A DNA stretch of 64,000 nucleotides from Telopea speciosissima. Taxonomy: Eukaryota > Streptophyta > Magnoliopsida > Proteales > Proteaceae. The notes beneath the pieces are model-generated. The model was not told where the DNA came from and did not search any database. It saw only the letters and a program-made list of their open reading frames with translations. The stretch spans positions 7,750,001 to 7,814,000 of the forward strand of contig NC_057924.1 in NCBI RefSeq assembly GCF_018873765.1, in the 5' to 3' direction. The position numbers and the translations under genes were made by a program. Of the stretch, positions 4,127-64,000 are shown one piece after another. Positions within the stretch are counted from its first letter, which is position 1, and each line of letters starts with the position of its first letter.

Positions 4127-5241
4127 TGTAGCAAGCGGATAAATTTTTACTGCAAACTAGGTAGTATGAATTTCCAACTGTCCATACATGGTCCAATCCT
4201 AGCATACTACGTGTAATGTGCAATTTATACAGCTCACATAGAGTTGTACACATTAGTGGGCATTCATGCATTGCAATAAATTACCCAATACACGTGGAGA
4301 TTTGAGAGAGTAAAGTAACGGCCGAGCAGTAGAACAGGTTTCACTATTTTCTCTAGAAATGTTACAAAAACTCATGATTCTATCTCAAAGAGATAATTAG
4401 AACAATATATAGAAAAACCCTAACCCCAGAAGGTACACAAATGCCCCTAGTCCAAAAAATGCTAAAAAACTTGAGCTGGACCAAAACATAACACATGGCT
4501 CAAAAGTACTCATTTTGAAGATCTCGACGAGCCCAACACAACGGCATGGAGCCCCGCCATTTTTCAGCATTCCGAGATCATTTCGAGGCCGAAACGGCCC
4601 TCCAAAGATCTCAACCGCACTTTCTGGACCAAATCAGACATCACCAACAACAATACACCTGGTGGGCATTCAAGCGCTGCAATAAATTGCCTAGTACACA
4701 TGTGGTGAATTGAAAAAGTAGAGTGACGGTTGCAAAGAAGAGGCGGGGCTCCATTGTTGAGTTTTGACGATTCTCAAGGTTGAAGGATGAGAGGAGTGGA
4801 TGAGTAGCAATGGAAACAAAACCAACATAACCAATTGATAGACATGATTCAAACTGTTAAGCATCAGTGTTTTGTGTTTCTTTTTGCCATTATCGATCCC
4901 AACCTATTCCACTCTTCAAGGAAGATAAGAAACCCTGAAGCTACATTTGCCATTGAAACTTCGAAACCCACTCAAATCCCTACTTCGACCCGTTCTTTCT
5001 TTATTTACATCCTTTGATATCTCCTATTTCTTTGCATCTCTCTCTCTTACATCCACAACTTCCTTTATTTTAGTTCTTTGGTTTCCTTATTAGCCTTATT
5101 TGGTTCGTTCCTTATATTTCTTCTTTCTCTTCTTCAAAATTTTCCTAAAAATTATCAATTCTCTCTCTTCTGTCTTTTGTGTTTTTTGTCTGTCAATTCT
5201 GTTCTTCCAACAAAATTATCTTTTCTTAGATTTAAATCTGA
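4127..5241. promoter_or_regulatory. upstream region and presumed 5' leader of the MADS gene
   Basis: No gene is seen. From about 4990 to the MADS start codon the strand is strongly CT-rich (many CTCT and TTTCTT tracts), which is common in plant 5' leaders. No TATA box can be assigned with confidence. A 60-codon reading frame at 4835-5017 has no recognisable domain and is probably incidental. Confidence 0.35.
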
Positions 5242-8200
5242 ATGGGTCGAGTTAAACTCCAGATTAAGAGAATAGAAAACAACACAAATCGACAGGTTAC
5301 CTTCTCCAAGCGAAGAAATGGACTCATTAAGAAAGCTTATGAGCTTTCTATCCTTTGTGATATCGATATTGCTCTTATCATGTTCTCTCCTTCTGGTCGC
5401 CTTAGTCATTTCTCCGGCAAAAAGAGGTGCACACTCCACTTCCCAATCTATGGCGGATCCAGATCTTCTACCGCGCGGGCTGCCCATCCTGCCGGGCTGC
5501 ACAGACACAAGGCGGAGTGCATTGACCGCCTTACCTCTGCCCAAGCAGGGGTAACGCGATCATTGCGCGTGGCCCTATGTCTGTGCAGCACAAGCAAGAC
5601 AGGGCAGCGCGCCATAGAAGATCTGTGTTGATCTATAGTTTATAATGGTTTTTATGTAATGGATCTAGTTATTGATTTCCTTTTCTTCATCTTCTCCTTG
5701 GTTCTCTATTTTCTTCATGGAATTTTTTTTTGGATTGATTGATTTAATTTTTTTTTCTTTTTTTCTTTTTTGGGTTTCAATTAGGATTGAAGATGTGCTT
5801 ACCAGATACATAAATCTCCCTGACCATGACACTGGAGGGTATGATCTTGATTCCAATTTCATTTTTGTTTAGGCTATGTTTGGATGTCAAAAAAGGATAA
5901 ATTCAAAAAAAATATGGATTTGAGAAGAGAGAGACACAAATTAATCATTGCATCGTCATGATTTTTGCCTCATTATGTTGTTTTCTCTTTTCTTTTCTTG
6001 ACATTTAAACTCTGTTGGGGGTGTGGACGCTGCAATTAGACACATCAAAAATGAAAATTTTCTACTACGGGGGTTGCAGAAACATTCTTGGGCTCACAGC
6101 CAAAGAAATTGAATCTAAAAAGGTATTTTGGAAAATACCAAAACTAAGAGGGTATTTGTGAACCCAAAGGGGAATTGAATTATTCCATCTCTTTGGTTGC
6201 AATCCTGAGTAGTATGAATGTTCCTACAACCCGGGTGGCAGAAAATGTTTTTCAGACACAAAGGGGGTGAAATGACTACACCACCCTTATGAAAGGCGAA
6301 AATGCCACTCCTATTGATATTGCCGCACAAAATTTTACTGCTACCCAGGTTGCAGGAATGTTCCTGCTGCCTGTGTTCACAGCCTAAGAAATGGAATAAT
6401 TCACTTTCCATTAGGGTTCATAAATACCCACATAGGTTATAGTATTCCAAAATGCTCATTTTTATTCCATTTCTTTGGCTATGAACCGAGTAGTAGGAAC
6501 ATTCCTACAACCTGAGTATCAGCAAAATTTTGTCCCTCCCATTGGCCCCAGAGAACACGTCCACCGCTTGTTTATTTCAGAATCAATCTCTCTTTCTCTT
6601 GAAATCTTTATCCTTCTAATTATGTTCATGTTCTTTTTGGTTTTTGATTGATTTGCAGGACTGTTAAAAATCGGGAGGTAATTAAAATGAAAACATAATG
6701 GATTTACTTGGTGGAAAAAAATCATCTGCAGTGCAGGCTTGACAACTCGACATGTGGAAGTTGCGACATCCAATGGTACCAAGCTCAAAAAGAAAAAAAA
6801 ATAATAATCTTGCTTCGAGCTCGCACCGTTGGATGAAGTTTCTTCCATGTGTCGAGTTCTCAGGCCCGCACTGCAATGCACTAATGAGGATTTTAGTCCT
6901 TAATTGATTCTCAGTCCTTGCTTATGTATCTATGTGAGTTCACATACGTATCATGTGCATGCAGTATATGATAAGGACCTTAAAGAAACTCAAGAGCGAA
7001 AACGATGTTGCTCTCCAGCTAGCCAAGTTTGTTCTTCCTTTCTCTTCCTCAAATAGTTTTTAATTTTCTTCTTCTGTTTTTTTTTTTTTTCATATTTGGA
7101 TTTATATTCTAATGAAATTACATTCTCTTTTTGATCCGTTAACTATGGTTTGAATCAGTCCTGGAGCTGTTAACTCTAATGTGGAGGTAAATTACACATC
7201 TTAATTCTTATCATCTAATTAATCTTATTTCAACTCTTTTAAGTTTAATAATTAAAATTTTCATTCTAGGAACTCCAACAAGAGATTAGTAGATTCCAAC
7301 AACAACTTCAGATGGCCGAGGAACAATTAAGGTGATATACTTGAAAGGATAAAACCTCATTTACCTGTTTAATTATATGCACGTACCATTTAGTAACTTA
7401 TTATCTTCTTTAATTTAATTTAACTGAAATTAAGGATTTTTGAGCCGGACCCACTAAAGCTCACATCAATGGGTGAACTAGAATCATGTGAGAGGCAGCT
7501 TATGGATGCATTGACACGTGTTACACAAAGAAAGGTAAAGGCTGACGCTGATATCTCTCTCTTATTAATATTGTACCAACAGCTCAATCTTAAGCCATTG
7601 GTCTTAATTTTTTTTTTCCTTTTGTTTTGTTTTTTTTTTTTTTTTTGGCAGAAATATCTGTTAGGTAACCAAATATCGTCTTATGATCAATCCAATATTC
7701 AGGTGAGTCAAAAAAAAAAAAAAAAAAAATGTATTAAGGTAAGGGCAAGGTTCTAAATTTCGGTTTCGATGTCGATTTCGATTCTAGTTGAAATTTAGAT
7801 TTTTCAGGTTTTGACCGAAACTTGGTATTTTCTGGGCAAAGCTTGATATATCATATTGATCAAAACTGATCGAAACTTAGTATGAGTCAGTATCAACTAA
7901 AGATTTCATCTCGGTTTCTAGTGAAACCAATATATCCCAGTTGAAACTGTAGAATAAGAACTATGGGTATGGGTCCAGTTGGTATGATTGCTTGTGACGA
8001 TCTGTTCGTCTAATAGGAGTGTGTGCTTTGGTATTTTAAAAGGGGCTTTTGTCTTCATTTAAGGGTTCATGTATAATCGTGCACCATGCATGGCCGTACA
8101 TGAAACTTTTCTTCTTAAGATAATAAAGGAAAAAAGAAAAAATAGCTTGATCCCTACTACATTAAAAAAGAAAGGGAAACGAATCATCATGACCCAGAGT

Positions 8201-37751: not shown

Positions 37752-39360
37752 CTCTAGCTCATCACACCCAATCGAAGCTTCTCCACAAACTCATTGAACC
37801 CTAACAGTTCCGATTAAACTCTAAAAACATTTATCTCCCTTCAGATCCACAAGAACAGTAGCTCTAAATCAACAATGAAGAAATGAAACTAGAAAAAACC
37901 AGAAATCAAAAATCGGCATTTCGCTTCGTTTGCATGATTTCCGGTAATTTCAGGAGGGAATGCGTTAGGATCGCACCAAGGTAAAGTGGTGAACCATGTG
38001 CGAAGGACGGCGAAAGGGGGGGTTTCGTTCGTACATTAGCACGTGCGAGAGAATGGTGCATTGGATCTCTCGGTGAGTGTCAGAACTCAGAAGATGTAGA
38101 CGATATGAAGAGAGAGGGATTTGTCGGTTCGTTTGGTCTTTGGTGATTCTTGGGAAGTGAAAAAGGTTTAGATGTTACTTTACGACATGAACTATCTTTT
38201 ATCTTCCAAAATATTTAAATGATTTTTAATAACTGGCATATAGTGGGATACCATTAACTATGTCAGCTATTATTGATAGGTCTTCTTTCCCTTGGAAAGC
38301 GACTTAGGATTGGAATTTTGGTGGGAGATCCTTCCACAAGTTCCGCTATGATTGAAATGAAAATATATTCGGAAGCATATTGGTGTCAAACCGTCGGTTC
38401 GGCACGGTTTCGATCGAGCTGAATCGAAAACCAAATCATTAAGAAACTTTGGTTTTGGTTTTAGTTCGCGATTTCGATTTATTTTGCATTTTATATATCG
38501 GATTAATACCAATTTAGATTGATTTGTTTTTTATTTGAATTACAATGAAGTTTTGCATTCATAACTTATAATGATGAAAGATTCGATAAATTCACTTTTA
38601 ATTCATTTTTTTCAAGTCAAACAAGTAAATTACCAAGAATAGGAATATGACACTTGACCATGCATTACTTTACAAATTGATGGGTTCCTTCAATTAACGA
38701 TTGATTGAGATCATGAACAGCAAAAACAATCCTTCGGTCCTCCCACTCAATGGTTCAAAACCCTAATTATCACAAGGTAGACAATGTGGAAGAGGAGAGA
38801 GAAAGATATGTGTGAGGGATCACATACCAAGTAGTAGGATCATAGAGTGTGTGTGTGTGTGAGGATTGAAATCCTCTCCCACGCGGGACGATGTCTAGCA
38901 CACATCGTCCGGTTGGGGAGGCCTCGATCCACATGCCACTGCACCGGGATGTGTGCGGTGGTGTGGATCAAAGCCCCCCAGCCGCACGATATGCATTGGA
39001 CACCGTCCGACGCACAAGTGCGCTGGAGAGGATCTCGGTCCGTGTGTGTGAGCTAATAGCCTCCATGCCTCCACCCGTGGTTGTATATTTATACATTGAG
39101 AACCCTAATATGTAAATGGATCACATGCCAAAGGGTAGGATCATATTGGGTGATCCAATTAAGATTTACTTAGTTGTGTCAAAATCAACATGTATAAATA
39201 AAAGTAATTATTTAAAAATCTCACTTTAAGGAGTTACAATATTATTATTTTTTTTTGTGAGAAAATAAAATATATTAATGAAAAGATAGGAGAGTCTATA
39301 CAATATTGTGATGAAGAACAACTTGTTCTTTATGAACTGTTACATATTTAGTTATTAAAT
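37752..39360. promoter_or_regulatory. upstream region of the UHRF1BP1-like gene and spacer to the mtACP element
   Basis: The presumed 5' leader and promoter of the minus-strand gene occupy 37752 to about 38170. Beyond that lie a short stretch of the TCGGTTTTGG-type dispersed repeat (38385-38480), the GC-rich MITE at 38861-39052 and AT-rich sequence. No gene is seen. Confidence 0.45.
38861..39052. mobile_element. GC-rich MITE with inverted ends
   Basis: A GC-rich block embedded in AT-rich DNA. The left end AATCCTCTCCCACGCGGGAC and the right end GCACAAGTGCGCTGGAGAGG with ATC are inverted with mismatches. ACGATGTCTAGCAC and GACACCGTCCGACG also roughly pair. It is preceded by a (GT)n run at 38848-38860. 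No coding capacity. Confidence 0.5.
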
Positions 39361-39635
39361 GGAAAATTTACACATACCACCATTGAGGTTTGACAAAAGG
39401 ATATTTTCACCCTTCAGTTTTGAAAAATTCTACGTACCCCCCTGAGGTTTGCAAATAATAACAAATAAGCCCATTCCGTCAGTTCATGACTAACACTGTT
39501 AAAAATTAGACTTGAACTAACGGAATTGCCCTTACAAGAAAGAAAAAAAAAAAAAAAAAAAAACACCTGCAACTCATCTTCCCCAATCGATTTTGGGGAA
39601 GATGGGTTGCAGATTTCAAAACCCCTTCAACCCTT
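39361..39635 (+). repeat. left terminal inverted repeat of the mtACP element
   Basis: Shared landmarks with the right arm (inverted) are TTTACACATACCACC, GAGGTTTGAC, AGGATATTTTCACCC, TTCTACGTACCCCCCTGAGG, AACAAATAAGCCCATTCCGT, CAGTTCATGA, GGAATTGCCCTTACAA, an A-rich run, CACCTGCAACTCATCTTCCC and TTTCAAAACCC. Confidence 0.88.
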
Positions 39636-39828
39636 TCAACGTCTGATGTCATTCTGCCTTTCCCTCTCTTGGATTCCAGTCAAGAATCGGTCGGGTTGGG
39701 TATCAAAACTTTGATGCGCAAAAGGGTTTTGATTTGGGATTTTTTCCCAATTTGAAACCCTAAATTCCTTAAGGGGGTCAAGATCAAGGGCGTGAACGAG
39801 AGCGAGAGCCAGAGAGAGCGAGAGAGAG

Positions 39829-40209
39829 ATGGCTCTGAGAGTTGCGATTCTCCGCCACATTCGAGTCCCAGTTCAAACTGCGGCACTAGATCGATTGGGA
39901 TCTCAGGCATGGAATCTCTGCAACTCCATTCGGTCGATGTCATCCCATGGAGACAATCATCTCGAGAGGGAAGAAGTGATCAAGAGAGTTCTCGATGTTG
40001 TCAAGTGCTTCCCCAAGGTCGATCCTTCTAAGGTTACCCCTGATGTCCATTTCGAGAAAGATCTAGGCTTGGATAGCTTGGATACTGTTGAAATTGTAAT
40101 GGCTTTAGAGGAGGAGTTCAAGCTAGAGATTCCAGATAAGGAGGCTAATAAAATTAATTCCTGCCCCCTCGCTATTGAGTATATTGCAAACCATTCAATG
40201 GCTTGCTAG
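39829..40209 (+). CDS. mtACP2: mitochondrial acyl carrier protein (mtACP2-like), intronless, transposon-borne
   Basis: Carries acyl intermediates on a 4'-phosphopantetheine arm in mitochondrial fatty acid synthesis, which supplies octanoate for lipoate; ACPs are also complex I-associated (family knowledge). A single open frame of 126 aa, the usual mtACP2 length. Residues 1 to about 37 are an Arg-rich, acid-poor mitochondrial presequence (MALRVAILRHIRVPVQTAAL). The carrier domain follows: EREEVIKRVLDVVKCF, DVHFEKDLGLDSLDTVEIVM with the modifiable Ser83, then EEEFKLEIPDKEANKI and AIEYIA. The ATG follows a GAGAGA-rich leader. An AAACCCTA telo-box-like word lies at about 39757. No introns, no stops and no lost key residue. 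It lies wholly inside the Mutator-like element at 39361-40677, so it is probably a captured or retro-derived copy. Transcription would depend on leader sequence carried with it. Confidence 0.93.
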   Translation: MALRVAILRHIRVPVQTAALDRLGSQAWNLCNSIRSMSSHGDNHLEREEVIKRVLDVVKCFPKVDPSKVTPDVHFEKDLGLDSLDTVEIVMALEEEFKLEIPDKEANKINSCPLAIEYIANHSMAC

Positions 40210-40410
40210 TTCTAGGTTATTGTGTCCAGAATGTAATGATTGGATCATCCGTTTTTGCTCAACTTTGTTGAGTAGTTGTAGGAATCTGATATTCGTGGTG
40301 GATAGAAAAATAATTTTGATCCATTTGATATTGTAAGTCATTGTTGATAAACTATATATTTTCTTGGATTTCTCATGTTTCAAGCTAAAACACTTTTGAT
40401 AAATTCCTTA

Positions 40411-40677
40411 AGAGTTGAAAGGGTTTTGAAACCTGCAACTCATTTTCCCCAAAATCGATTGGGGAAGATGAGTTGCAGGTGTTTATTTTATTTTATTTTT
40501 TTGTAAGGGCAATTCCATCAGTTCACCTCTTATTTTTAACACTGTTAATCATGAACTGACGGAATGGGCTTATTTGTTACCATTTACAAACCTCAGGGGG
40601 GTACGTAGAATTTTCCAAAACTGGGGGGTGAAAATATCCTTTCGTCAAACCTCAGGGGTGGTATGTGTAAATTTCCC
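40411..40677 (-). repeat. right terminal inverted repeat of the mtACP element
   Basis: Inverse of 39361-39635. Differences include a TTTATTTTATTTTATTTTTT run in place of the left arm's poly(A) run and scattered substitutions. The outer end is followed directly by TTATAAAAT. Confidence 0.88.
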
Positions 40678-40686
40678 TTATAAAAT

Positions 40687-42420: not shown

Positions 42421-43400
42421 TTTTTTTTTATTTTTTGGTGGAAAAAGAAAAAAGGCATAAATTAAAGGATTAGCAAACTGTTTACATCATCAGGGCCATA
42501 CAAAAAGAGCTGATGATATTTCACAGCTTACCTAGCAAAGTTAGTTATCCAAAACAAGATATAACTATCCTTAATTACAAAAAGCTAGAGGTATATTGTC
42601 TTTGAGAAATCCATTAAGATCAATCAACAAAGGCACCATCTCCCACGACCATGGGCAATTGGATGGTTGTGGGAGATGCTGAAGAAGCTCCTTTGTTGAA
42701 ACCCAATCTTCCTTGATCTTAATCCCCCTGGATGATGCATGTTGTAGACCAAAAAGTAAGGCAGTTGCTACCGGCTCCAAGTCAAAATACGCCATCAAAA
42801 AACCTGCATGAGCTGCGACTAACTGGCCCTGAAACACTACACAAAAAGCCCAACCCGAGGAGTCTATGCCTAGGTGGAAGATTCCTGCACAAATCAACAG
42901 AGGAACATCAGAGTAAGGTAAAGCTAAAGCAGTAATGGAAGCCGGTATATCAGTAGCCATGAATGTGTCTGTACTAATTTCATTAAGAGTAGGGGAATTG
43001 AGCCTAAGATCAGTAATCCAGGTATTGATTTGAGTCAATGTTTTAATAGGATCAGCCTTAGCATTCCCTACAACAACCCTATTTCTTGAATCCCAAATAA
43101 AATAGCAAGTTATAATGAATACAGATAAAAACCAAGTGAGAGATTGATATCCAAGATAACTTTGAGAAAGAAAAGAAGTGCAAAAAACTTCCAAAGAATG
43201 ATAAGAAAACTGTTCAGTTCTCAAACCCAAAGGGCCCGCTGCACAAATGTGCTTAGTCCAATTGCATGCCAGGAGAATATGCCAAATCGATTCTATAGCA
43301 TTCCCACAAATTAAACAACCAGAGTCGACTAGACTCCACTTCGCAATGATCTCGTGAGTAGGGATACCTGTATGTAAAACACGTCAAAAAAATATTTTAA
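42421..43400 (-). pseudogene. L1-type LINE remnant, zf-RVT and RNase H-like domain
   Basis: A minus-strand open frame (42571-43230) ends in an RNase H-like domain of the plant L1 type: ICAGIFHLGIDSSGWAFCVV, then VAAHAGF, then EPVATALLFGLQHASSRGIK and EDWVSTKELLQHL. Upstream in another frame lies zf-RVT text (CLICGNAIESIWHILLACNW). The T-run at 42421-42430 on the plus strand is its poly(A) tail. The reverse transcriptase core and endonuclease are gone. The ORF start methionine is arbitrary. Confidence 0.75.
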
Positions 43401-44522: not shown

Positions 44523-44738
44523 CTGGCAATGATCTCTTGTCCAGGAAGAGGATGACTCTTTGATAGTAAATACAAGGATAGGGATTCCAAGTGATATGAC
44601 AAAATTCTGCTGCACTTGAAACCTTACTGTTTCTAAAACAAATGCAGGTCTTACAAGGATTATGAAACAAAATGTGTGTGTGTGTGTGTGGGGGAGGGGG
44701 GGACAACTATTCAAGCAAAGGATGTTTCACATGTATTA

Positions 44739-44927
44739 GGGAAAGAGAACGCTACCCGATCGCGTGCGGCATGCGGCTTCTGCACCTAGACACAAGGCCA
44801 AGTGAAATAACCGTCGTGCCATCAGGGATTTTCACCTTTCTATGGGGGCACGTCGTCATTTCATGTGGCTCTATGTCTAGGCGCAGGACCTGTGTGCCAC
44901 ACGTGACTAGGTAGTGTTCTTTTCCCC
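44739..44927. mobile_element. MITE in unit 1 of the tandem duplication
   Basis: Left end GGGAAAGAGAACGCTACC, right end GGTAGTGTTCTTTTCCCC, inverted with mismatches. Core: CACCTAGACACAAGGCC inverted with TATGTCTAGGCGCAGGAC, and GTGCGGCATGCGG. No coding capacity. Same family as 42090-42278. Confidence 0.8.
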
Positions 44928-45311
44928 ATTATTTATAGATCTTAAGCTTCTTCATTCCTTTAGGCAAGCTTTGAGTGTAGTCTTTTCTCCATGTTAGTAG
45001 GTTTGAAAATGTGTATATGACAATATGTATCCGTTCTATTTTTTAAATAGGCATTGAGCTACCCTCATTAAGGATTTTGGGAGTCCTCTTTCTCTCAAGA
45101 TCTGCTAAAGATTGTATCTTTTTGTCCTACGAGGGTTAATAAAATCCTCCCTTCGTGGGGTTATTCGCATATAAAAATAAAAAATAAAAAAAATCTTCTG
45201 TTTAGCCATATTTAAGGTTTTAGTGCACAATAGCGATGACAACATCTGTTGTCATGATTCCAACATGGATATAATTCAACTATTCAAGCAAAGGATGTTT
45301 CACATGTATTA

Positions 45312-45501
45312 GGGAAAGAGAATGCTACCCGATCGCGTGCGGCATGCGGCTTCTGCACCTAGACACAGGGCCAAGTGAAATAACCGTCGTGCCATCAGGG
45401 ATTTTCACCTTTCCATGGGGGCACGTCAGTCATTTCATGTGGCTCTATGTCTAGGCGCAGGACCTGTGTGCCACACGCGACCAGGTAGTGTTCTTTTCCC
45501 C
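45312..45501. mobile_element. MITE in unit 2 of the tandem duplication
   Basis: The duplicated copy of 44739-44927: left end GGGAAAGAGAATGCTACC, right end GGTAGTGTTCTTTTCCCC, a few substitutions and a 1-bp length difference. It arose by segmental duplication rather than by an independent insertion, because the flanks match. Confidence 0.8.
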
Positions 45502-45852
45502 ATTATTTATAGATCTTAAGCTTCTTCATTCCTTTAGGCAACCTTTGAGTGTAGCCTTTTCTCCATGTTAGTAGGTTTGAAAATGTGTATATGACAATAT
45601 GTATCTGTTCTATTTTTTAAATAGGCATTGAGCTACCCTCATTAAGGATTTTGGGAGTCCTCTTTCTCTCAAGATCTGCTAAAGATTGTATCTTTTTGTC
45701 CTACGAGGGTTAATAAAATCCTCCTTTCGTGGGGTTGTTCGCATATAAAAAATAAAAATAAAAAATAAATAAAATCTCCTCTTTAGCCATATTTAAGGTT
45801 TTAGTGCACAATAGCGATGACAACATTTGTTGTCATGATTCCAACATGGATT

Positions 45853-52235: not shown

Positions 52236-53870
52236 AATTATTATTAGGGTAAAGTACACGTACCCCCTATAATAACCCAATATTCCTCATACCCCCTAAG
52301 TGGTTCAATATTCCACGTACCACCCTTGCTTTACACTCCAAATGCCAGATAGGTCCAATCCGTTAAATACCACCGTTAGATACCAAAATTTTGACCATTT
52401 TACCCTTTGCTTCATTTTCTTAAATCTGTAAAGACTTAATTACCCTCACTTATTTGTTGTCCTAAATTAATTGAAAATGACCATTTTACCCTTTGTTTTA
52501 TTTTTATAAATGAAAAGACTTAATTGCCCTCATTTATGTATTACCCTAACCTAATTTGAAAAGACTATTTTACTCCTAAATACTTGTTCCTGAAAAACTC
52601 CCAAAATGCCCTCATCTTCCCCAAATCATCATCTTCTTTTACATACCCACCACCACCCACCATTGGCTTTGGGTTCTAAGACAAATGCGAGGTAAATTCT
52701 CTGGAAACAAATCAATTTCCGTACAGGTTTCTCTTATCAGCCAATTCGATGAAACCCTAACCCAATGATGAAACTTATATACTTAAAATTCAATTTTTTT
52801 TGAACTAATCTTGATGTCCAATGCAAGAAAACAACTAAAAAGATAATGATTGATCAAGAGAAGAAAACAAAAAATTGCGATTTGCGATGAGTCTTTCATA
52901 AAATGGAAAGATTTGGAAGTTCTGTTATCAGATAAAACCAGAGTTTCTGATACTTCCATCTTTGGTTTTTGGTGGAAGGCTCTGCTCCTCTCTCTCTCTC
53001 TCTCTCTCTGTCCTAACCTCTCTACTTCCCTTTATTCAAAGACCAAACTCCAAAAGTGAGAGAGCGAAACAATGTGAAAAAGAAAAATTGAAATTGGGAG
53101 AAAAACAGAGTAAAGAGAAGAATTTGTTTCCTACTGTGACACTATGAGAATCTGTTTACAGGTGTAACAGATTAGTATTGTTACTTTAGATGATATTGTG
53201 TTGGTTGTAGACTGAAAATTAAGTTAAATGCATTGACAAGGAAAGAACTAAGCGAACAGAGGTGGTGCTACTTTGTTGCATCTACAAATAAAATAAAAAA
53301 AAAATCAGTGTTTTTTCTTACCCCCAAATCAGGATTCGATTTCTGGAATGGTAGGTGGTGGTGGTGATGGTGGCTGCGGCAATGGTGGGTGGTGGTGGTA
53401 GTAGTGGCTTTGGTGATGGTGTTAATGGTGGGTGGCAGCGGTGGTGGTGGGTATGTAAAAGAAGATGATGATTTGGGGAAGATTAGGGCAATTTGGGATT
53501 TTTAAGAACAAATGTTTAGGGGTAAAATAGTCTTTTCAAATTAGGTTAGGGTAATACATAAATGAGGGTAATTAGGTCTTTTCATTTATAAAAATAAAAC
53601 AAAGGGTAAAATGATCATTTTCAATTAGTTTAGGGCAACAAATAAGTGAGGGTAATTAAGTCTTTTTAGATTTAAGAAAATGGAACAAAGGGTAAAATGG
53701 TCAAAATATTGGCATCTAACGGTGGTATTTAACGGATTGGACCTATCTGGCATTTGGGATGTAAAACAGGGGTGGTACGTGGAATATTGAGCCGCTTAGG
53801 GGGATACGAGGAATATTGGGTGCATTATAAGGGGATACGTGTACTTTATCGGTTGACCTTTATTATTATT
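52236..53870. mobile_element. second long-TIR (Mutator-like) element
   Basis: Inverted arms of roughly 400 bp or more: from about 52246 (GGGTAAAGTACACGTACCCC, ATATTCCTC, GTACCACCC, GCCAGATAGGTCCAATCCGT, TTTACCCTTTG) and from about 53440 to 53850 in reverse (CAAAGGGTAAAATGG, GTGGTACGTGGAATATTG, GGGGATACGTGTACTTTATC). The candidate flanking duplication is ATAGAGGTT at 52227-52235 and 53871-53879, though it is not directly abutting the clear arm ends. Interior about 52680-53390 has no transposase. It contains a minus-strand 55-codon frame from ATG at 52959 preceded by a (GA)n leader. Confidence 0.7.
53340..53455 (+). repeat. GGTGGT-rich tract inside the second long-TIR element
   Basis: Runs of GGTGGTGGTGGTGATGGTGG and GGTGGGTGGTGGTGGTAG with interruptions; the inverse C-rich counterpart at 52650-52670 is much shorter. 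It could form G-quadruplexes. Simple-sequence expansion rather than coding sequence is likely. Confidence 0.6.
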
Positions 53871-61300: not shown

Positions 61301-64000
61301 TTACAAAATGATTGTTCAGCCTAGTCAGTGCTACAACTGGATCAACTAGGACTACCCCTTGAAATTCCATAGGTGGTAATCCAGCCATCAGAATCACATC
61401 ATATTTCTGAGACCTGTTCTACCTGTTAAATCTGATCTTTGACCAGACTTAAAACCTAATCAGATTTGTTTTGTAATCTGTTACTGAGTTTTCTCTTGAA
61501 ACTGGTTGTGTTCCTATCTACGATTCTGGTTTCTTCTTGGTTTTCTGAACCCTAAGTTCTTTGGTGGTTAGAAATCCATTAGTCCTACTTCTCGAGTATG
61601 GATCTCTGTGGACTTGGTCCAATTATAAGAATTTAAATGCTTATTGAGACTTAATGTGTTGCATTCATGGTATTTTCACCAGAGTACCAGACTGTTACCT
61701 AAGATTTTTGAAATTGGATGACTCTAATCATTTTTTGTGGGAAAATGGATGCAACTTGGGCAGGTTGAATATGCTGGTGGACAACCTGAGTACAACCCTA
61801 GGGACTGAATGATCAACTCATAACCCTTTATTCAACCTGGTCTGGAATGATTTTGAGCCTTCCTAGTGCATTTACTGTCCCCAGGTTGGTCATGATTGGT
61901 TAGAATATAATGTGAAGACTTTTTCGACTGCATTAGTTTATACTTTGTTTATTAGTTTTTGTTTTTTGCTGAGAGTTATTCAATTAAATTGTTGGACTTC
62001 ATCGTTCAAGCACAATAATTTATTTTGCAGTTTCCTTGTTAAAATTTCTGTACTTTTTGCTATATGCTCTCATTTGGAATTTTCTTTAGAGTTTTATAGA
62101 ATTCAATCTGAAGTTCTTTCAGTAATTTTTTCTCCCATATGTATGAAAAAGGTGCAATGGGCTGGGTTTGACAAGCTAGAATGTGATGGAGATGTCATCC
62201 GTCAAGTTCTCTTGCTGGGTTATCGATCTGGTTTCCAGGTTTGGGACGTTGAGGAAGCTAATAATGTGCTTGAGCTAGTATCCAGGCATGATGGACCTGT
62301 TTCTTTTTTGCAAATGCAACCAAAGCCAATTGCATCAAAGAGATCAGAAGACAAGTTTGTAGACGTTCGTCCATTGCTTGTTGTTGCTGGAGATGGAATG
62401 CTTTCTGGAGGTGGTAATAACCAGGATGGGAATGCGAATGTTACTACTTGCCAAGAGTCTGCAAATGGCAACTTTGTTCCCACAGTTGTTCGGTTTTATT
62501 CCTTGCGGTCTCAATCTTATGTACATATTCTGAAGTTCAGATCTGCTGTTTACTCAGTAAGGTGCAGTCCTCGAGTTGTAGCTATTTCTCAGGCAGCGCA
62601 GGTATATTACTTGTTTGTGCTTCTCATTCAGTGATATCTTAGCTCAAACAACGATTGAAAAAAGGCTTACATTTTCCTTTTCTCTTTTCATTTTATTGCA
62701 GATACATTGTTTTGATGCTGTAACATTGGAGAGAGAATATACTATTGTTACATGTCCTATAGTTTCGGGTAGTATTGGTTCTGGTGGTATTGGCTATGGA
62801 CCGCTTGCATTGGGTCCCAGGTGGTTGGCTTATAGTGGAAGTCCTGTTTTAGTTTCAAATACAGGCCGTGTCAGTCCACAACATCTTACACCTGCTGCAA
62901 GTTTCTCTGGTTCTTCAGATGGCAGCCTAGTGGCACATTATGCAAAAGAATCAAGCAAGCAACTTGCTGCTGGTATAGTGACCCTCGGAGATATGGGATA
63001 CAAGAAGCTGTCAAGGTATTGTTCTGAACTCCTACCAGATTGCAATAATTCTCTGAAACCTGGAAGTCCGGGCTGGAAAAACAACGGCACTGTCAACGGC
63101 CATTTGCTAGATACAGATAACATTGGAATGGTATGCTTTTCTCTCAATGTTATTATCTTGTGCTGTTGCTAAAAACTCTTGTGAGCTATGTTAATGTACA
63201 TATTTTTTTGATTCACTTGATTTGTTCCACTGAATCTACTTCTTGATGAATATTTGGATGTTTGTGCGTTTAACATGTTTCCCATTATTCCAAGCAAATC
63301 CACTGTTGTTAACTCAAGATTTTACCCTGTTATATCCCAAAACTGATTTCAAATCTTCTCAGTCAAAAGCATAAGTTTCCTTTCCTTGGCCTACTTTTCT
63401 CTGTGAAGAAAACAAGTGCTGTTATGATAACTATTCTATTTAACTGTATTTGTTCTTTGTTTGACAGTATGACCTATCTTGACTGCTGCAGGTAATTGTC
63501 CGGGATATTGTCTCTAAATCTGTTATAACCCAGTTTAGAGCACATAGGAGTCCTATTTCTTCATTGTGCTTTGATCATAGTGGAATCCTGTTGGTGACTG
63601 CTTCAATTCAAGGTCACAACATCAATGTCTTCCGTATAATACCCCCACTTGCAGGAAATTCATCCGGATCTGATGCTGGTGGTTCTTATGCGCATCTTTA
63701 CCGGCTGCAACGTGGCTTCACTAATGCGGTAATAGTATGATATTTGTTTTATCTTTTAATCAAATAGTTTTTGGCATTTCCTTGGTACTACTTTATTCTT
63801 CCATTTGTTATCAGGTTATACAGGACATCAGTTTCAGTGAGGACAGCCACTGGATTATGATAAGTTCCTCAAGGGGAACGAGTCACTTGTTTGCAATATC
63901 TCCTTCAGGAGGGTCTGTAAACCCTCAGTCTACTGGTTCTGGTCTTATTAATGGCAACAATGGCCTGGGTGTGATGACTAAGACTGCGGTTCGTTGGCCA
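55319..64000 (+). CDS. ATG18f: ATG18-like PROPPIN/BCAS3-domain autophagy protein (ATG18f/g/h group), 3' end outside window
   Basis: WD40 propeller protein that binds phosphoinositides and acts in autophagosome formation (family knowledge). Exons: 55319-55525, 62152-62601, 62702-63130, 63492-63728, 63815 to beyond 64000, all in phase; 503 residues lie in the window. The N-terminus MRNDDQKPQGVVQRSGRSNG, then ISSYWRIVSSGASTVASSVR, is typical of the group. Then VQWAGFDKLECDGDVIRQVL, GFQVWDVEEANNV, VPTVVRFYSLRSQSYVHILK, AISQAAQIHCFDAVTLEREY, SSKQLAAGIVTLGDMGYKKL, ITQFRAHRSPISSLCFDHSG, and in the lipid-binding loop position YRLQRGFTNA. Here LQRG (residues 434-437) stands where canonical ATG18 has FRRG, so one of two lipid-contacting arginines is absent. 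Intron 1 is 6.6 kb and its acceptor AAAAAG is weak. The f/g/h assignment is from resemblance, not a tree. Confidence 0.92.
56612..56704 (-). mobile_element. 93-bp tRNA-derived SINE/tRNA retropseudogene with perfect 13-bp TSD
   Basis: On the minus strand: GGGGGTAGCTCAGTTTGAAG (A box), CCTCACAATTAAGAGG (anticodon-stem-like), GGTCACGAGTTCAACTC (B box), then an A-rich tail CCAAAAACAAAA. It is flanked on both sides by TAGATCATGGATT (56599-56611 and 56705-56717), identical over 13 bp. This is the mark of LINE-machinery retroposition. It lies in intron 1 of the ATG18-like gene. Confidence 0.85.
57981..58084 (+). mobile_element. Au-type SINE 3' fragment, ATG18 intron 1
   Basis: CAGGAAACAGCCTCTCCGTG, GGTTAAGGCTGTGTACATTA, CCCTCCCCAGACCCCAC and the terminal CCTCGTGCACTAGGTATGCC plus T-run match the Au SINE 3' half. 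The promoter-bearing 5' half is absent. Confidence 0.78.
60906..61052. mobile_element. hAT-like MITE, 147 bp
   Basis: Same family as 18272 and 27619: left CATATTTGTCAAGGCGTCGC, right TGCCTAGACGCTGTGACAAC with TATA. It is longer because of about 40 bp of extra core. Flanked by ATTTTCAG and ATTTTTAG (7 of 8 bases), consistent with an aged 8-bp hAT duplication. Confidence 0.72.

Follow-up and report, generated by a model that had tools for sequence, protein, structure and literature searches.

A spliced copy of mtACP1 carried by a Pack-MULE-type element family in Telopea speciosissima, probably inserted as cDNA and then spread with the element

How DNA transposons acquire pieces of unlinked genes is debated. 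Pack-MULEs, described from rice, tomato and other plants, are nonautonomous elements with long terminal inverted repeats (TIRs) and 9-11-bp target duplications, which carry host gene sequence and sometimes exist in several copies; the outer TIRs of tomato PM-ZIBP, for example, are 87-95% identical in some rows of the source (PMC3310237). Another route for host DNA into TIR elements is Pack-TYPE tandem insertion, which, in the available parts of the two sources, takes chromosomal DNA between neighbouring elements and involves no RNA (PMC8903248; PMC13317346). A 2026 review allows, in its accessible portion, that another, undiscovered capture mechanism may exist (PMC13317346). In fungi, hAT elements carry and multiply an intronless copy of the housekeeping gene for histone H3, whose source, by the authors' inference, was a transcript or a retrocopy (PMC6710886). 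In human, the ARF6 retrogene lies almost wholly inside the DNA transposon MER20, according to the part of that report at hand, although the authors allow recurrent retroposition and their pipeline drops intronless copies of multi-exon parents (PMC8277862).

The locus described here shares the above traits of Pack-MULEs, and differs from them in that its cargo is a spliced copy with its own 15-bp duplication, the unoccupied site of which is visible in related elements. An event of this kind is already known, since an intronless gene on a DNA transposon has the fungal precedent; that case, however, concerns hAT elements rather than a MULE, its copies are inactivated by RIP, and neither an insert-flanking duplication nor an unoccupied element is shown in the available text (PMC6710886). 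The duplication and the unoccupied sites lift the present case above an inference from a missing intron. Our literature search found no plant retrocopy or whole gene in a MULE with an insertion duplication, which leaves its absence from print unproven.

The window, the whole stretch of 64,000 nucleotides that was analysed, contains at 39361-40677 a MULE of 1317 bp, whose two inverted arms each measure about 270 bp; it is composed as follows.

39352..39360, no strand: left target-site duplication of the MULE, TTATTAAAT, 8/9 alike with 40678-40686
39361..39635, plus strand: left TIR, 243/268 identical to the right arm, with further copies genome-wide
39636..39760, plus strand: MULE-derived interior, which in related elements mostly forms part of the right arm's inner side
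39761..39775, plus strand: left copy of the 15-bp duplication, TAAATTCCTTAAGGG, a direct pair in 5/5 carriers and 0/19 other elements
39776..40399, plus strand: retrocopy of spliced mtACP1 mRNA, with 53 nt before the start codon, the coding region and 190 nt after the stop codon
39829..40209, plus strand: mtACP1 frame of 126 codons with presequence and DSL phosphopantetheine site (open reading frame, protein comparison, Pfam)
40032..40033, plus strand: exon-exon junction, codons 68/69, site of the parent's 1,552-bp GT-AG intron
40400..40414, plus strand: right copy of the 15-bp duplication, TAAATTCCTTAAGAG, the last 5 bases of which also form the right arm's inner end
40410..40677, minus strand: right TIR, aligned to the left arm
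40678..40686, no strand: right target-site duplication of the MULE, TTATAAAAT

The arms, of 275 and 268 bp, are identical at 243 of 268 aligned positions (91%), plus one 7-nt gap within an A-tract, so that the long inverted arms of about 265 bp reported by the first-pass annotation are indeed present. The 9-bp flanking duplication that it described also stood: the flanking 9-mers TTATTAAAT and TTATAAAAT match at 8 of 9 positions and directly abut the element ends GGAAAATTT and GGGAAATTT. The chance of such a match is 3e-4 for random window 9-mers and 0.042 for all-A/T 9-mers, and because of the latter frequency it is modest evidence alone. The alternative that the arms are two separate small elements was rejected, since there is no good duplication around either arm singly (at best 5/8 on the left and 7/9 on the right, at offsets of up to 8 bases). 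If the element transposed into this locus, the empty host site would have been TTATNAAAT. The interior at 39636-39760 adjoins the arm in gene-free elements as well, such as L112 (5088-5214) and L110 (4211-4335), and the element holds no second long frame, the longest other one having 87 codons. No further arm copies were found inside the window, where the other matches are A/T-tracts only, and the arm pattern gave 0 matches in viral contigs. Each arm also contains its own near-perfect hairpin (39567-39612 and 40431-40480) with a stem of 20-22 bp, a DNA fold z-score of -8.85 and 0/200 shuffles equally stable.

Several other features were observed in the window. A second long-arm element at 52250-53848 has an unrelated TIR (380/406 aligned positions identical), arms with internal tandem repeats of about 84 bp, an interior without a long open frame, and no clear flanking duplication. 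A tandem duplication of about 573-581 bp, with pieces 96-98% alike, lies at 44704-45851, a MADS-box exon (SRF-TF) at 5242-5628, and a piece of a BCAS3-type WD40 gene at 61867-62631. A zf-RVT (Pfam) remnant of a LINE-type reverse transcriptase is located at 42571-43383, about 1.9 kb beyond the element.

We searched the element against the source genome (822,943,500 bases, 1,287 contigs), and the 112 matches obtained derive from the best 40 of 2,612 candidates, so that all counts given here are lower bounds. As a result, at least five near-full-length copies, 92-100% identical, were detected on four contigs, namely the window copy on C9, L083 on C3 (95%), L084 on C7 (93%), L085 on C5 (93%) and L086, also on C7 (92%), while the remaining matches are mostly arms of elements with different interiors. 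Both arms were located in 19 of 22 listed places that were examined closely (20 stretches of 8 kb plus L092 and L097, many of them picked for an interior match). Perfect 9-bp target duplications flank 12 of 23 elements, comprising these 19 siblings and the four other carriers with the window copy excluded; the flank test tried several offsets, and weaker A/T-rich flank matches carry little weight. The perfect 9/9 duplication of L126 is a T-run, and among the carriers L084 has no recognisable 9-bp duplication, L085 matches at 7/9 and L086 lies in an A-run only. The perfect duplication of L127 (3824-5562) is TTATAAAAT, identical to the right-hand duplication of the window element, which reflects either target preference or chance.

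By their long arms and 9-bp duplications, the elements form a nonautonomous, gene-carrying Mutator-like family of the Pack-MULE type. Host gene sequence lies inside, the 9 kb at the parent locus contain no such TIRs, and the cargo transposed with the element as a unit, giving the five near-full-length copies. The first-pass annotation had read the locus as a Mutator-like element and had called for a search of the genome for other elements with these arms and for the parental mtACP gene. Sibling arm copies genome-wide and the perfect 9-bp duplications of 12 of the 23 others bear out its reading, and both searches were positive: besides the near-full-length copies and the related elements, one mtACP1-type locus was found on a different contig, C6. 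The locus is thus not the sole one of its kind, nor are its arms devoid of other copies.

The related elements carry other cargo. Pfam identified a short-chain dehydrogenase in L111, an EF-hand protein in L112 (its frame, 4214-4777, open from ATG to stop), a kinesin piece in L116, a 3'-5' exonuclease in L117 and a BMT5-like piece in L118, and gave no match for 5 of the 10 sibling frames scanned. A near-same long open frame without a Pfam match occurs at two places, L123 (2523-3263) and L127 (4465-5220), and presumably resembles a SIAMESE-related protein. Since siblings hold several other host-like sequences, gene cargo is common in the family, and the standout feature of the window element is the legible RNA route, not gene cargo itself.

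The cargo of the window element is the uninterrupted 126-codon mtACP frame with presequence and DSL site that had been described earlier, confirmed at 39829-40209 (Pfam PP-binding, E 1.9e-10). The encoded protein scores 177 bits with the Vigna NDUAB1-beta chain, 176 with Arabidopsis mtACP1 and 108 with Arabidopsis mtACP2, and is by sequence comparison assigned to the mtACP1 type, so the earlier label "mtACP2" does not hold. Among the matches scored outside the carriers, one locus on C6 is closely similar to the cDNA region; its two exon pieces, 93% and 96% identical, are split by a 1,552-bp intron with canonical GT-AG borders (CTTCCAAG/GTCAGT ... TCTGCAG/GTTACC). In a six-sequence alignment, this intron is missing exactly in all five carriers. 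Furthermore, the sequence matching the parent spans 39778-40395 and thus extends beyond the frame on both sides, as UTRs would, in agreement with the plausible leader and trailer noted before. Across the 9 kb at the parent, the element is matched only in the exons and in A-tracts.

A protein search of the source genome (15/15 candidates scored) yielded 14 matches, of which the five that cross the exon junction are the five carriers, with continuous frames, one of them containing a stop. The other nine begin or end near residues 60-70; two of them are the exons of the parent, and the remaining seven are weaker and partial and presumably represent exons of mtACP relatives. No intronless mtACP1 was found outside the five carriers. 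Because the parental intron is missing exactly and the carrier frames continue across the junction, the carriers hold a spliced copy. From the lack of introns, the first-pass annotation had suggested capture of either a retrocopy or an intronless parent; the former is favoured by the intron-bearing parent, and the latter found no counterpart in this search of the genome.

The insertion site of this copy could be read directly. A direct pair of the 15-mer TAAATTCCTTAAGGG flanks the cDNA in 5/5 carriers and in 0/19 other elements (up to 2 mismatches allowed); the right copy is TAAATTCCTTAAGGG itself in L083, L084 and L086, and the two copies are 14/15 alike in the window element and identical in L084. 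In 17 of the 19 non-carriers the 15-mer, being part of the inner arm, occurs singly or as an inverted pair, and in the other two it was not found. The inner end of the arm is reached by 30 of the 41 arm ends inspected, and in 27 of these 30, a rate biased by the partial selection of related elements for an interior match, the 15-mer adjoins directly without cDNA and runs straight into TTGAAAGGG or a near match. According to the arm-end table, 23 of the 27 cDNA-free ends also share the carriers' left flank. The cDNA-free ends are the unoccupied site. The 15-mer is absent from the 9 kb at the parent. The insert and its junctions, small later changes aside, are alike in the five carriers, which argues for one capture followed by transposition, and is silent on the enzyme. 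At the junctions, two T that the parent lacks stand near the 3' end, the 5' end has about two additional G, and no poly(A) tail was found beyond an AAA common to the target.

These observations make it very probable that a cDNA of mtACP1 was inserted into a MULE and that the composite then spread. Spliced mRNA of the resident mtACP1 gene would have been reverse transcribed, and the cDNA would have entered at TAAATTCCTTAAGGG, adjoining the right arm, with duplication of 15 bp, most likely through target-primed reverse transcription by a LINE; the composite would subsequently have been moved to at least five places by a transposase supplied in trans. A direct target duplication around a spliced, UTR-bearing transcript is the usual mark of LINE-type target-primed reverse transcription, and the putative lower-strand nick, ATTT/A, resembles the L1-type motif. 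Since a poly(A) tail is lacking, the cargo is here named primarily a spliced cDNA copy, for which LINE retroposition is no more than the likeliest route. For the insertion step alone, the cDNA may instead have filled a double-strand break of the MULE, copied in by gap repair or attached by end joining, with the 15-bp repeat arising from repair. The missing tail and the few non-parental bases at both junctions would fit such a process, and a cDNA patching a break may also leave a short duplication. A spliced copy with UTRs that has a 15-bp duplication on either side is nevertheless typical of retroposition, so that a LINE is clearly the preferred agent and break repair rather unlikely, even though gap filling is a proposed Pack-MULE model in the consulted part of the literature (PMC8277862).

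Two further explanations dispense with the RNA step. Genomic DNA of an intronless mtACP1 gene might have been taken up through ordinary Pack-MULE capture or tandem insertion, as the siblings hold long open frames and gene pieces whose cDNA origin is unproven, and as roughly every second putative gene derived from a MULE in rice is single-exon in the available part of that survey (PMC4858842). This is most improbable, given that no intronless mtACP1 was detected beyond the five carriers (15/15 candidates scored), that a direct repeat encloses the insert, and that the unoccupied form of this repeat is visible in relatives. Two independent repeats could also have landed around a resident gene, for which the arms being just 91% alike might speak; with the same arms-and-cargo structure at five places and the parent elsewhere, however, this is scarcely conceivable.

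We then considered whether the copies, after their probable origin by cDNA insertion and spread, have been kept by selection, as the unbroken frame had been taken to hint. The changes private to the five copies, however, comprise 16 synonymous, 36 nonsynonymous and 1 stop, as under neutrality, where 13.5-15.0 synonymous changes are expected without constraint (binomial P 0.26-0.43). The majority method treats the six sequences as a star, so that some shared changes are counted twice (L083 and L084 have two replacements in common, and L084 and L085 each have one in common with the window copy); with four replacements removed, 16 synonymous among 49 still give no clear excess. Our verdict rests on these private changes, not on pairwise dN/dS, which ranges from 0.22 to 1.91 and, in comparisons with the parent, includes the parent's own constrained history. 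In one copy, L086, codon 100 is a stop that breaks the frame.

A working extra mtACP1 gene kept by selection might be read from the open window frame with its presequence and DSL site, from the four of five copies without stop or frameshift, and from the absence of frame indels in all five (0/5). Such retention is very unlikely in view of the missing synonymous excess and of the window copy's own private changes, 1 synonymous to 6 nonsynonymous. Seven neutral changes would spare the frame from a stop about 81% of the time (indels uncounted); at most one stop among 53 neutral changes is likewise expected about half of the time (indels uncounted). The open frame is thus no sign of selection. The window copy, which differs from the parent at 14/381 sites (K 0.038), has also lost the acidic residue 107, which is D in the parent and E in all but one of 81 relatives. 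One of these relatives comes from a viral contig, the others are 80 loci kept of 181 in genome contigs with prokaryote titles, and all were used for conservation only. Of six query-only sites relative to Vigna and Arabidopsis, E46, E76 and N110 are also found in the parent, and the copy's own departures at conserved sites are residues 43, 107 and 123 only, with N at 107 and S at 123. No protein-level constraint was detected on the carried frame, which needs no function to be open, and the retrocopies seem to be drifting, not retained for a use.

The likeness of the arms, about 90%, had previously been taken as a sign that the insertion is not very recent. The K between the arms of the window element, about 0.10, is larger than that between the copies in the coding region (0.041-0.069; 0.022-0.060 in the MULE interior), suggesting that the arms were probably not identical even at the time of the element's move and thus provide no clock. 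A neutral estimate with arm divergence as the age, which gave an open-frame chance of 0.002-0.51 and in its worst settings would favour selection, was accordingly superseded.

Taken as a single case, the locus is readable stepwise, from the parent and its spliced copy to the unoccupied target, the duplication and the five descendants, so that RNA-based duplication of one housekeeping gene is seen in series with DNA-based duplication. A scan for a direct duplication together with unoccupied sibling elements is suggested for any plant genome. That mRNA retroposition into resident MULEs is a general second cargo route of Pack-MULEs is a tentative and somewhat doubtful proposition. If true, arm-proximal DNA would offer nick sites to LINEs, making whole spliced transcripts with their UTRs mobile as DNA, and a general RNA route would have been missed by surveys that discard intronless copies.
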